Origin: Microcyclospora pomicola
Taxonomy: Eukaryota; Ascomycota; Dothideomycetes; Capnodiales
Assembly: GCA_002786065.1 (NCBI GenBank)
Contig: NHNY01000020.1
Span: 1 to 64,000 of the forward strand
Length of the DNA: 64,000 nucleotides
Direction: 5' to 3'
Shown here: positions 12,228 through 54,703 of the stretch, piece by piece
Position numbering within the stretch: position 1 is the stretch's first letter
How the letters are laid out: each line of letters begins with the position of its first letter
Notes under the pieces: generated by a model
Database searches by the model: none
What the model was told of the DNA's origin: nothing
Seen by the model: the letters and a program-made list of their open reading frames with translations, nothing else
Translations under genes and position numbers: made by a program

Positions 12228-14108
12228 CTACGCCTCCGGCTTGAGCAGCGTCAACTCATCGCCGACGCCCTGGCCATCGCCCCGGATGAATTGCCAGGTG
12301 AGCTTAGTGGCGTCGTGGATCGTCAACTTGCTGAAGCCGTAGTGCGTCTGGTCGAGGACGGCGGTGATGTTGAGCTGGGAGGCGCCCGCGGAGAGGGTGG
12401 AGTGGGACTCGATGTTGCCGGCCATGCCGTTGATGATGTGGGTGAGAGACTTGCCGGGGTTGGCGCGGTAGGTGTGGTTGTTGATGACGGAGGCGGTGTC
12501 GATGGTGCCGTTGGCGCCGAGGGGGAACAGCCGCTCGTACCAGTGGATGTGGCCGGCGAAGTAGGCGTCGACGCCGTGCGCGAGGAACAGCGGCTCGAAG
12601 GCGTTGCGCACGTTGCGCTGGTAGGATGAGACTTGCGACGAGTACATGGGCCGGTGCGACATGGCGATCACCCAGGGCGTCTTGGTGCGGTCCACGGCCG
12701 CGAGGTCCTTGGCCAGCCATTGGATCTGCTCGTAGGCCGAGTTGTCTTTCCAGTTGTTGCCGTCGATGGAGCCGAAGGGGCCGCTGTCGGTGACGTACGT
12801 CTGCTCCTCGGTCGGGAGCGTCTCGTTGGCCGTCAGGTCTCGCACGAAGGGGTACTCCGGACTGTAGGCGAAGTCGGTCTCACCATCGAGAGACACGAAG
12901 TGCGCAAGCCCGTAGTCGAAAGAGTACCAGAAGTTGCCGACACCGCCGGATTCGGCTCCGGGCATGCGGAAGCGGTGCTGGTAGGTGGTGAAGTTTCTGC
13001 GGCGGTGTTAGTGTTGTGTTGAGAGGTCGAAATGATCAAGTCATGCTTACCGCTGAGATGGAGGACAGCTGTAATAGGTCAGAGACGAGTTGGCGGCGGT
13101 CGAGTTGGATTTGTCGTCATCCAAGTAGGCAGTCAAGATGTTGCCGGGGCCATCGAATTCGGCACAGGCTGCCTCGTGGTTACCAGGCATCGTCATATAC
13201 GGGATCTTGCCAGTGAGCTGGTTCATCCATTGTTGCCACAAGTCCCAGTTGGACTCGTAGAGCACGCTCATGTCACCGCCTTGGGGACCACCCTGGTTCG
13301 CAACCTCGCCCGCAGGAAGGGGGACGAGGTACTCAGCTGGAATTGGCGCACTTCCGGGAAGCTCGGTCGAGGTGCCATTGTAGCAGACCGGCCAGTCACT
13401 CTCGCAAGGCAGGATCCCGGAGTACCAGTCATCGGCGTAGGAGATGTCGCCACCGTGCCAAGCAAAGGCGAGTCCTTCCGTCGCGGCCTTGAGCAGCTGC
13501 TTGTGGGTACCCTGGGCGTTGGTGTAGCCCATGTCGTTCAGCACGGCCACGGAGAAGGACTGCTTGTCGCCAGCGGCGTGAGCAGTCTTGAAGTGCAGGA
13601 CATCCGAAGCAGTGGTGCCATTGGCGGCATCGATCTTGTAGTAGTACGTCGTGGCCGGCTTCAGGTTGGTGAGCTGGATGTCGTGGTAGAACTGACTGCA
13701 CTGGGTCACGACAACCTCCGAGCACGGTGGTGTACGGTCGTAGGTCTTGGTCTGGCCAGTCGCACTCTCGCACAGGTTATGCGGCGAAGTGCCCCATTGG
13801 ATCTTGGGAGCCTTGCCGAGGCCGAAGGGAGTCTGGAAGTGCACGTTGATGCCGTTGGGCACGTATGAAGTGGAGATGACATTGATGTTGTTCTTGGGCT
13901 TCTTGGATGCTGGCTTGACGGCCGGAGGCTCGACGAGACGTGGGAAACCTTTACCGTTGCCATTGATGGTTGGGTCGACCCAGTCGCCGACTGGCACGGC
14001 CGGGCCGGTGTATGGGAATCTGGTATCAACATCAGGCTTGGGGGCTGCACGCACAGATGGAGCGGTGAGGATGGCCCCAAGGAGGGCGACACCAGTGGCA
14101 GACTTCAT
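12228..14108 (-). CDS. Secreted purple acid phosphatase (about 608 aa)
   Basis: Two exons, 14108–13051 and 12996–12228, are separated by a 54-nt intron (GTAAGC donor, GCAG acceptor). A signal peptide (MKSATGVALLGAILTAPSVRA) precedes a fibronectin-like N domain and a metallophosphoesterase domain. Metal-ligand blocks are visible in order: LNDMGYTN, HGGDISYADDWYSG (residues about 218–231), MPGNHEAAC (about 307), MSHRPMYSS and FAGHIHWYERLFP. The tyrosine in the GDISY block is the charge-transfer ligand of purple phosphatases. Many N-glycosylation sequons occur. The enzyme releases phosphate from organic esters outside the cell at low pH. Two CACGTG sites lie upstream (14317–14322 and 14655–14660), suggesting PHO4/NUC-1 control. 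Confidence 0.95.
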
Positions 14109-49784: not shown

Positions 49785-50128
49785 TTTGATGATCTGATCT
49801 AGATATTTCAAGGTCGAACAGGTCGACGATGGAGTATTGGAAAATGTTTAAGAATGCTAGACACCGAGCTCGAAATACTGCTCGTAAATGCACGGACCAA
49901 GCTACTGAAGGTGTCAATCTGTGGATCGTGTTTGTATGTAGAAAGTACTAATTCGCGGCTCAAATCCATCTAGATAAAATGCCGTGTGTATATACTAGCC
50001 GCTTAGTGTTCATGTCTGTGGCATGAGCCTCCGTCTTGGATAAGCTGAGCAGGTCATATACGACATTGCAGGAGTGGAGCAGCACAATGTAGATTATAAA
50101 ATACCAAAATTTTGTCCCACCATTATTT
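49785..50128. other. Intergenic region
   Basis: Short spacer between divergent prefoldin and tRNA genes. Nothing recognised. Confidence 0.4.
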
Positions 50129-50164
50129 GGGTGGTTGGCGCAATGGTAGCGCGTTGGTTTTCGG

Positions 50165-50172
50165 AAGAGATT
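50165..50172 (+). other. 8-nt canonical-position tRNA intron
   Basis: Eight bases (AAGAGATT) lie between positions 37 and 38 of the anticodon loop. That is the site used by ordinary nuclear tRNA introns removed by the tRNA splicing endonuclease. The exact register could shift by one base. Confidence 0.6.
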
Positions 50173-50188
50173 CACCAAAGGTTGAGGG

Positions 50189-50245
50189 GTAAGCAACTAC
50201 ACCTTTCTTTGAGTACTAGAAGACAGTACTAACATCTCATTCCAG
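50189..50245 (+). other. 57-nt spliceosomal-type intron inside the tRNA T arm
   Basis: The insertion falls exactly between T-stem base 53 and T-loop base 54. It begins GTAAGC, has a perfect TACTAAC at 50227–50233, and ends TTCCAG, 12 bases after the branch motif. Its length equals that of the protein-gene introns in this window (mostly 51–67 nt). Confidence 0.7.
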
Positions 50246-50279
50246 TTCGAGCCCCTTGCTGCTCGCAAACAAAGAGTTC

Positions 50280-50286
50280 TTTTTTT
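50280..50286 (+). terminator. Pol III oligo-T terminator
   Basis: Seven consecutive T residues 15 bases beyond the tRNA 3' end. Confidence 0.75.
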
Positions 50287-52674: not shown

Positions 52675-54135
52675 TCATCGACTTCCATTCTCTACCCCGA
52701 GTACCCCCGAGCTCTTCCCGTGTAGAGCCTCGCCAACTCTACCAGCCAAGCCTCGCAATCCGAGACTCGCCGCTCGATGCCGCGTGCTTTGTCGGATTCT
52801 GCTTTGCATCTTTGCTTCCTCTGCGGTTTCGGCGACAAGCACGTTCATGCCACCTCCTTGCTTATCGTCGAGAACCTGCTGCCGTGATGCAAGAGCTTGT
52901 TGAGCAGCCTTGCCTGACGGCACACGAGGCTCTGCGCTGCTGTGTGCCATTTTTGCGGTTGTTGATGCTTTCATGACATCATCCTTGTAAGGATTGGGCG
53001 AAGGCTGAGTGCTGTCCTTGGCGTCACTTCCAGTGATCGACGAGGTCTCAGCATCCAACTTCTTCTGTGCAGCGAGCTTCGCGCGCTCGTACCTAGCACT
53101 GACGTCACCGCCAGTCCATTTTGTGCCTAAGAGACCGTCCCAGAAGGTGAAGAAAGGCTGGCTGAAGTTTGTCTTGACGCCCCAACTCTGATGGTGCACG
53201 TCGTGGTATCCAGCATTGTTGCTGGTAACATGTTGAAGGGGATCCCAGGGGAACGCATAGCCACAGTGATCATCCACAGTCTTGATGGTTGATAGCGTAA
53301 AGAACCACATGCTTTGACGAATGGTCATGCCAGTTGCAAGATATGCTAGTCCGGTGCCAAGGGTATCGAGAGCGAACCCTTCAACAGGGTGGTTATACAG
53401 AGCCCCATAAGCATATGGTACATACAGTCGGTGGTGGCGCGAGTGGAAGGTCGTGTAGAGGAATTTATTCATATGCATAGCCCGGTGGAGGAAGTATTGC
53501 CATGTATCGACGACAATGATGGCTGCAAGGAATTGGACGGCCGGGATAACAAGGTGATAGATGGCCTTGGCGACTTGTAGCTCCCATTGCGCGAAAGCGG
53601 GCACTGTCGCAACTGTGCCAGATGAGACGATGACCTGGGTCAGTTCCGGGTAGATACCGCCAGCCAAAGCTCCTCCGAGCATGTTGTTGGAGCTGCCGAG
53701 ATTCTTCGCCATTGTAACAGCATCTATCCCCACTGCGGCCAGCACAGTGGGAATGGATCGCTGTGCTATTCGCAATCTTTGCGCCCACACCGCGATATCA
53801 TAATCTTCTTTTCCGAACGTAGCCTCTGGATCGAACCAAGATAATCCCAATCCGAACACTGTCTGGACAATTTGTTGTATTACGACATCCCTGAAAACAT
53901 CCCATCTGCTAACATGGTTCCGTTTCAGCACTTCAGCAGGTGTGTGTAAGCGGTATTGTGGAAACATATCCCACTCGTCAATGACATGGAAGATCATGGA
54001 CACCGTCCAATATGCTATGATCGGTAGCGCCATTGTGGTGTATGCATCTGGTATGCCAGGTATGAGCGAGGGAAGTGGTCGGAGGGAATAGTCCGGTAGC
54101 GGAGGAAGATCGGCTTGCACCGTTGAGTTCGCCAT
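52675..54135 (-). CDS. SUR2: Sphinganine C4-hydroxylase Sur2 (about 486 aa)
   Basis: Single exon. The fatty-acid-hydroxylase histidine boxes are present: FLHRAMH, FHSRHHRLYVPYAYGALYNH and NAGYHDVHHQ, which bind a di-iron centre. Helices such as LPIIAYWTVSMIFHVIDEW and ELQVAKAIYHLVIPAVQFLA place it in the ER membrane. It adds the C4 hydroxyl that turns dihydrosphingosine into phytosphingosine. The start at 54135 (MANSTVQADLPPLPDYSLRP) fits the family; the frame is open 37 codons further upstream but that part is not conserved-looking. After the catalytic part (about residue 375) comes a hydrophilic Ala/Ser/Lys-rich tail of about 110 residues, longer than in yeast Sur2 (349 aa). Confidence 0.94.
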   Translation of the reverse strand: MANSTVQADLPPLPDYSLRPLPSLIPGIPDAYTTMALPIIAYWTVSMIFHVIDEWDMFPQYRLHTPAEVLKRNHVSRWDVFRDVVIQQIVQTVFGLGLSWFDPEATFGKEDYDIAVWAQRLRIAQRSIPTVLAAVGIDAVTMAKNLGSSNNMLGGALAGGIYPELTQVIVSSGTVATVPAFAQWELQVAKAIYHLVIPAVQFLAAIIVVDTWQYFLHRAMHMNKFLYTTFHSRHHRLYVPYAYGALYNHPVEGFALDTLGTGLAYLATGMTIRQSMWFFTLSTIKTVDDHCGYAFPWDPLQHVTSNNAGYHDVHHQSWGVKTNFSQPFFTFWDGLLGTKWTGGDVSARYERAKLAAQKKLDAETSSITGSDAKDSTQPSPNPYKDDVMKASTTAKMAHSSAEPRVPSGKAAQQALASRQQVLDDKQGGGMNVLVAETAEEAKMQSRIRQSTRHRAASLGLRGLAGRVGEALHGKSSGVLGVENGSR

Positions 54136-54703
54136 GGTCGCGTCGGTGCTTGTGGTACGCAGTCGTGTCACTGCTTTGTGGGAGTGTCCAGCAGGCTCCT
54201 GTGAGGTCGTACCAGGCCAAGACAAAATAGTCCGCTCTGCTGTCACGCGCGATCAGGAGACGAGAAGGATCACGCCGGAAGTCGCCGCGATGGGTTGAGC
54301 TGATGGTGGAGGGGTAGTGTGGGTAATCGTTGGGTGCGGAAGATATTAAGGTCGACGTAAGCGCGGCAAAATGGAGGGTAAGGAGTGTATGTGAGGTCAA
54401 GTCGATATGCTGAAAGTGTTGATGGAGATGATGTTGGAGACGAGAGTGGGAGATTGTCGTTGGTTTATCGCGTGAGCCCTGGTGGCAAAACTCGGCTAGC
54501 GGAAACTCTACGGCTAAAACCACTCCGGCGTCATCGACTACGATTGAGATTGGGCGTGAAACATCTGGCACTGGGCAACTGATCAAGCATTCGCCACAGT
54601 TGTAAGATCTGTTTTGCGCGTACACGAGTATATTGTCTAGTCAATCAGCAAAGTTGAATCTTCGATACAGGCCGTCAGGAGCTCGAGTAATACTTATTCC
54701 GAC
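54136..54703. other. Divergent spacer between SUR2 and the Zn-finger/LysM gene
   Basis: The 568 bases hold both promoters. No gene seen. Confidence 0.5.

Follow-up and report, generated by a model that had tools for sequence, protein, structure and literature searches.

The question raised by the locus at 50129-50265 of the 64,000-nucleotide (nt) stretch of the Microcyclospora pomicola genome analysed here (contig NHNY01000020.1, positions 1 to 64,000; in the following, the window) is whether a transfer RNA (tRNA) gene can carry an intron of the messenger RNA (mRNA) kind. A sequence-only reading had proposed a gene for tRNA-Arg(TCG) whose T arm is split by 57 nt with spliceosomal signals. The evidence compiled below makes it very probable that these 57 nt are a U2-type GT-AG intron in a functional RNA polymerase III (Pol III) gene, and that the genome has at least five genes of this kind, whose transcripts the spliceosome would convert into functional tRNAs.

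Anatomy of the tRNA-Arg(TCG) gene

The gene, located in a part of the window (from about 48.8 to 52.7 kb) without a long open reading frame (ORF), is composed of the following elements:

50129..50265, plus strand: tRNA-Arg(TCG) gene with two introns (Rfam tRNA model, 25.5 bits; cloverleaf parse; ARAGORN after excision)
50129..50164, plus strand: 5' exon, tRNA positions 1-37, anticodon TCG at 50161-50163 (cloverleaf parse)
50165..50172, plus strand: ordinary 8-nt intron at 37/38, AAGAGATT (cloverleaf parse)
50173..50188, plus strand: middle exon, positions 38-53, with T-stem GAGGG at its end (cloverleaf parse)
50189..50245, plus strand: 57-nt spliceosomal-type intron at 53/54, GTAAGC ... TTCCAG (sequence, signal tabulation, excision scoring, chance scan)
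50227..50233, plus strand: branch-point motif TACTAAC, 12 nt before the intron end (sequence)
50246..50265, plus strand: 3' exon, positions 54-73, with T-loop TTCGAGC, T-stem CCCTT, acceptor GCTGCTC and G73 (cloverleaf parse)

The GTAAGC starting at 50189, the TACTAAC at 50227-50233 and the TTCCAG ending at 50245 are all found where the sequence-only reading had placed them. It had further claimed that removal of 57 nt between positions 53 and 54 completes the cloverleaf; position and extent of this segment hold, but the 8-nt intron at 37/38, which had been overlooked, must be removed as well. With both segments excised, a complete cloverleaf with T33, T54, T55, C56 and A58 is obtained, and the acceptor, T and anticodon stems contain no mismatched pairs. 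The match of the Rfam tRNA model ends exactly at 50129 and 50265, scores 25.5 bits (E 0.005 in a search of 601 bases) and contains a large insert in the T loop. Neither a default Rfam scan of the window nor ARAGORN called a tRNA, the former because the score falls below the gathering score of 29 bits; given the gene itself, ARAGORN called nothing in the unspliced sequence and tRNA-Arg(TCG) once the 57 nt had been removed.

The boundaries of the insert were determined by scoring excisions in the 3' part of the gene by T-stem, T-loop and acceptor pairing alone, with the variable loop fixed at 4-5 nt and the 37/38 intron taken out first. The top-scoring excision, 50189-50245, shares its score with one shifted by a single base, which lacks GT-AG. 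The combination of GTAAG, YRCTRAY 8-19 nt from the end and a terminal YAG occurs at 4 of 1,023,080 combinations of start and length (54-61 nt) on the two strands of the window, among them the insert itself and an mRNA intron at 12997. In its 5' splice site, branch motif, YAG end and length, the insert conforms to a U2-type spliceosomal intron, and it sits at 53/54, away from the canonical 37/38 site occupied by the separate 8-nt intron. Group I and group II introns were dismissed on length alone.

The mRNA intron at 12997 is one of three in the window whose removal joins a single Pfam domain:

12997, minus strand: mRNA intron, purple acid phosphatase
47588, minus strand: mRNA intron, MFS transporter
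58517, plus strand: mRNA intron, PhoD phosphatase

They measure 54, 58 and 63 nt, and their branch motifs precede the 3' end by 10, 12 and 15 nt, so that the equality in length claimed for the insert holds approximately rather than exactly. A search for mRNA introns by joining of open frames was uninformative, with 109 loci as compared to 125 and 94 in two mock-signal controls.

Further tRNA genes with interrupted T arms

The genome (23.37 Mb in 58 contigs) gave 54 matches in a search with the Rfam tRNA model, 63 of 492 first-look candidates having been scored. Eighteen matches on contig C48 were set apart as mitochondrial, as read from its size and tRNA cluster; among the 36 others, a decayed Ser-GCT copy (L050, C5:77330-77391), about 300 bp from an intact gene, was omitted, and 35 genes were parsed. 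Eight more ordinary genes were recovered via D-arm motifs (two Phe, Trp, two Asp, Glu-CTC, Val-TAC and Gln-TTG). These motif searches produced many chance matches, with controls close to the real counts, and the non-tRNA-like L070, L074, L075, L106, L117 and L118 were left uncounted; a Glu-like match at C1:686262 stands outside the count as well, and a second model match in L068 was judged to be noise on reading. In the resulting 43 nuclear genes the T arm is interrupted in five and intact in 38. The four genes found in addition to tRNA-Arg(TCG) are:

C12:885491-885616, minus strand: Arg(CCG), 54-nt insert at 53/54
C30:49236-49374, plus strand: Lys(CTT) copy, 56-nt insert at 51/52
C14 near 143117, minus strand: second Lys(CTT) copy, 56-nt insert at 51/52
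C24 from 172322, plus strand: Val(CAC), 61-nt insert at 60/61

All five inserts (54-61 nt) share the order GTAAGC or GTAAGT, branch motif 10-12 nt from the end, and YAG, and in length and branch distance they are similar to the three mRNA introns of the window listed above. The 5' splice site is GTAAGC once and GTAAGT four times, the branch motif reads TACTAAC once, TGCTAAC twice and TACTGAT twice, and the 3' end is always CAG or TAG. In every gene the excision optimal for the cloverleaf is the one bounded by GT and AG, without a rival in Val and with an equal-scoring 1-nt slide in each of the remaining four. None of the 28 introns at 37/38 in the 35 parsed genes begins with GTRNG or ends in AG, and CTRAY is present in five of them. 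Arg(CCG) exceeded the Rfam cut-off despite its insert (40.2 bits). ARAGORN called no tRNA in four of the five unspliced genes, gave the right identity for Arg(TCG), Arg(CCG) and Val(CAC) when the T-arm insert alone was removed, and called all five as parsed when both introns were taken out. Convincing mutual similarity of the T-arm introns is confined to the Lys pair, the two Arg introns at 53/54 giving a z of 2.0. The assignment of the 57 nt as a spliceosomal-type intron, as made in the sequence-only reading, is thus borne out by these four further genes, and the Lys genes discussed below point in the same direction.

Functional genes or dead copies

The alternative that survives best, although unlikely, is that the five loci are dead or dying tRNA copies which acquired spliceosomal introns or intron-like sequence and yield no mature tRNA, decoding being left to ordinary genes that escaped the search. 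That dead tRNA copies exist in this genome is shown by L050. On the other hand, the five genes retain full cloverleaves together with full splice signals, and the two Lys(CTT) copies offer a direct comparison of exon and intron. They are located on different contigs with upstream regions of no clear similarity; their mature sequences are identical at 73 of 73 positions, whereas the T-stem introns show 9 differences over 56 sites and retain their splice signals (Fisher p = 0.0004). Along these lines, three Gly-GCC genes (L033, L034 and L035) have identical mature sequences and differ in their 8-10-nt introns at 37/38.

A DNA search for uninterrupted near copies of the five genes revealed none, the only intron-free relatives being two fused Lys 3' halves. 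At C30:49714 and C14:154123, the Lys 3' half is joined to a different structured sequence, and the junction is exactly the one predicted for a gene without the intron. These halves may predate the gain of the intron or may have been copied from a spliced RNA. The surrounding segments, L120 1-241 (C30:49560-49800) and L121 1-241 (C14:153970-154210), consist of a long hairpin with a CTTCGG loop, followed by the intron-free Lys-CTT 3' half and the Lys trailer; the structured pair has no Rfam match up to E 1 and is possibly a chimeric small-RNA gene or a spliced-tRNA copy. A high-copy short interspersed nuclear element was considered for the Lys genes and rejected, the trailer motif having two matches without gaps at up to 3 mismatches; counting the Lys genes themselves, which carry one extra trailer base, four loci with the trailer are known.

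A second, ordinary Arg-TCG gene, named in the sequence-only reading as the finding that would indicate a dead copy, did not turn up in the tRNA census, which is incomplete. The genome search did not find genes for Asn, elongator Met, Val-AAC, Ile-TAT, Pro-TGG/CGG, Ala-CGC and Glu-TTC, owing either to limits of the search or to further unusual interruptions. Exact-pattern scans for related tRNAs in prokaryote genomes and viral contigs gave none, as expected for a fungus, which proves nothing.

Several observations weigh against functional, spliceosome-dependent genes. Four of the seven acceptor pairs of tRNA-Arg(TCG) are G-U, the highest number among the 35 parsed genes (Arg-TCT and Arg-CCT have three), which may hint at decay. 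The Rfam search of the genome overlooked the eight ordinary genes recovered only by their D-arm motifs, and with 63 of 492 candidates scored, ordinary Arg-TCG, Arg-CCG or Lys-CTT genes may have been overlooked too. The Lys trailers differ by a single substitution in 43 nt, and the low exon divergence of the pair may in part result from recent duplication or gene conversion; both copies contain one mismatch in the anticodon stem. ARAGORN assigned unspliced L051, one of the Lys genes, to Lys(CTT) by placing a 43-nt intron at 38, and it called both Lys genes Ile(TAT) when the T-arm insert alone was removed. Sets of intron-like motifs 50-69 nt long number 14 in the window, the insert included, as compared to 6.5 in 40 dinucleotide shuffles, an enrichment of only about twofold. 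Finally, U6 (a single match, 86 bits, above the cut-off) and 15 matches to 5S are all free of introns, and therefore Pol III genes in this genome are not generally riddled with such insertions.

Removal of the T-arm introns

In view of the position at 53/54, one may consider that the inserts are ectopic tRNA introns with bulge-helix-bulge (BHB) motifs, cut by the tRNA-splicing endonuclease as in Cyanidioschyzon merolae, where the intron of tRNA-Ile(UAU) likewise resides at 53/54 (PMC9602550). This appears very unlikely for the genes at hand. The strict motif has a central helix of 4 bp between 3-nt bulges, and at most two of these four pairs can be formed in any of the five genes, even with a 1-nt slide, in a scoring of this strict form. 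Furthermore, BHB introns need neither GT nor a branch motif nor AG, all of which are present in each of the five inserts.

Transcription signals

The candidate Pol III signals around tRNA-Arg(TCG) are the following:

50095..50100, plus strand: TATA-like box TATAAA at -34, candidate Pol III upstream element (sequence; genome comparison)
50244..50254, plus strand: B-box-like AGTTCGAGCCC, re-formed in the DNA by the intron AG (sequence)
50280..50286, plus strand: T7 run 15 nt downstream, candidate Pol III terminator (sequence)

A TATA-like box at -30 to -43 is found in 17 of the 35 parsed tRNA genes and in three of the five with T-arm introns, and runs of T7-T9 follow all five at distances of 10 to about 50 nt. 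The sequence-only reading had proposed that the acceptor AG rebuilds a usable B box in the genomic DNA; a candidate B box is indeed re-formed with insertion at 53/54, where it reads AGTTCGAGCCC. An insertion at 51/52 leaves the B box undivided in exon 2, and at 60/61 the TTCGA core stays in exon 1, the next conserved C becoming the intron G in the DNA. The TTCGA is kept in the DNA of all five genes, and its survival may be the reason why the T arm tolerates insertions. Alternatively, the location in the T arm may be an effect of detection, which would favour genes whose 5' halves are intact. TTCGA also occurs inside the T-arm introns of L047 (at nt 6) and of the two Lys genes, L048 and L051 (at nt 18), where it may be an extra promoter box or a matter of chance. 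An origin by tandem duplication of the T arm, considered in view of these internal motifs, was dismissed, as no clean duplicate was seen.

Capped transcripts of RNA polymerase II (Pol II) are the main substrates of spliceosomes. It can hardly be assumed, however, that the genes are transcribed by Pol II in longer RNAs, spliced there and the tRNAs cut out afterwards, for although the preference of the spliceosome for such transcripts and the ORF-poor surroundings of tRNA-Arg(TCG) would suit this route, the T7-T9 runs behind all five genes, the TATA-like boxes of three, as in ordinary tRNA genes here, and the retained B-box cores argue against it.

Proposed biogenesis, origin and decoding

For the reading as functional Pol III genes with spliceosomal introns, the following course can be rationalized. 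Transcription would start with the aid of the upstream TATA-like box and the A and B boxes and stop at the T run. The spliceosome would then excise the T-arm intron and thereby restore the T arm. Thereafter RNase P and RNase Z, the T-arm modifying enzymes and, for the 8-nt intron at 37/38, the tRNA-splicing endonuclease and ligase would complete the tRNA. Spliceosomal removal presumably precedes end processing and cleavage at 37/38, because the T arm forms only after splicing. As to their origin, the introns may have arisen by insertion, for example by reverse splicing; three positions (53/54, 51/52 and 60/61) suggest at least three insertion events, and perhaps four, because no convincing resemblance is seen between the two Arg introns at 53/54.

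The consequences for decoding depend on which codons the interrupted genes serve. By the wobble rules CGG is readable by anticodons TCG or CCG only, while Val-TAC and Lys-TTT could cover GTG and AAG partly. The only genes found that can read CGG are Arg-TCG and Arg-CCG, and both are interrupted. In stretches of seven ORFs of the window (3,750 codons), CGG occurs 41 times, AAG 131, AAA 62 and GTG 67 times. On balance it seems rather probable that tRNA biogenesis in this lineage is spliceosome-dependent: the interrupted set, including both CGG-reading genes found and both genes found that are cognate to AAG, the commoner Lys codon, would have to pass the spliceosome, with Arg-TCG and Lys-CTT requiring the tRNA endonuclease as well. 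Assembly of the T arm would then act as a checkpoint in the nucleus, linking how particular codons are translated to the capacity for splicing, the introns having entered at least three times, perhaps four, and always in the T arm, where the DNA can keep or re-form the B-box core.

If this holds, the division by which nuclear tRNA introns belong to endonuclease and ligase, and spliceosomal introns to mRNAs and a few special RNAs, is broken, and the decoding of specific codons is coupled to spliceosome activity. These genes would also constitute a natural test of spliceosome action on uncapped Pol III transcripts, and they would be manageable examples of how very short structured RNAs gain introns. 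A warning is in order, as standard scanners overlook such genes; tRNA-Arg(TCG) escaped both ARAGORN, run on the window, and Rfam with its default cut-off.

One protein-coding neighbour should be mentioned. A fatty-acid-hydroxylase-like protein at 52675-54252 (minus strand) has its best named match, at 84%, in a record labelled Quercus suber, which is probably a fungal sequence in a plant assembly; its named matches at 69-71% include Oleoguttula, Zasmidium, Teratosphaeria, Zymoseptoria and Dothistroma, so that by this protein the fungus stands close to Mycosphaerellales/Teratosphaeriaceae.

Comparison with known systems

The canonical nuclear tRNA intron at 37/38 is exemplified within the Arg(TCG) gene by its 8-nt intron, from which the 57-nt intron differs in position, length, signals and presumably in the enzyme that removes it. 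In searches of an open-access library, which covers neither subscription papers nor preprints, no report recognisable as describing spliceosomal introns in tRNA genes was listed. A review on tRNA introns contains no word beginning with 'spliceosom' (PMC4090602), and tRNAscan-SE 2.0 is described as handling non-canonical introns for archaea (PMC8450103).

The closest parallel in position is found in C. merolae, whose nuclear tRNA introns also occur outside 37/38, the T-arm site 53/54 included, some genes having a 37/38 intron in addition (PMC9602550, PMC3978253). The ectopic junctions of this organism form BHB motifs and are cut by the tRNA endonuclease (PMC3978253). The 53/54 site is thus common to both, whereas in the genes described here the strict BHB core is not formed and splice sites and branch motif are present.

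With respect to intron gain, spliceosomal introns derived from introner-like elements are known in Dothideomycetes (PMC4457414). Such elements are recognised by many near-identical copies in a genome; in a comparison of the five T-arm introns with each other, convincing similarity is limited to the Lys pair.

Spliceosomal introns in structured non-coding RNAs have precedents in fungi. The U3 small nucleolar RNA genes, including those of Dothideomycetes, contain them almost exclusively in the 5' stem-loop (PMC5832005), and the reference list of the same article includes a paper on repeated intron insertion into fungal U6. U3 thus shares with the present genes an mRNA-like intron in a structured RNA, but it is not a tRNA. 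The sequence-only reading had referred to U6 itself as precedent, and rightly so: the U6 small nuclear RNA gene of fission yeast carries an mRNA-type intron, for which reverse splicing has been proposed as the origin (PMC10484740). As in the genes described here, an mRNA-type intron is lodged inside a short Pol III RNA. Unlike fission-yeast U6, which is a component of the spliceosome, the hosts in M. pomicola are several tRNA genes, with the U6 match of this genome being intron-free.
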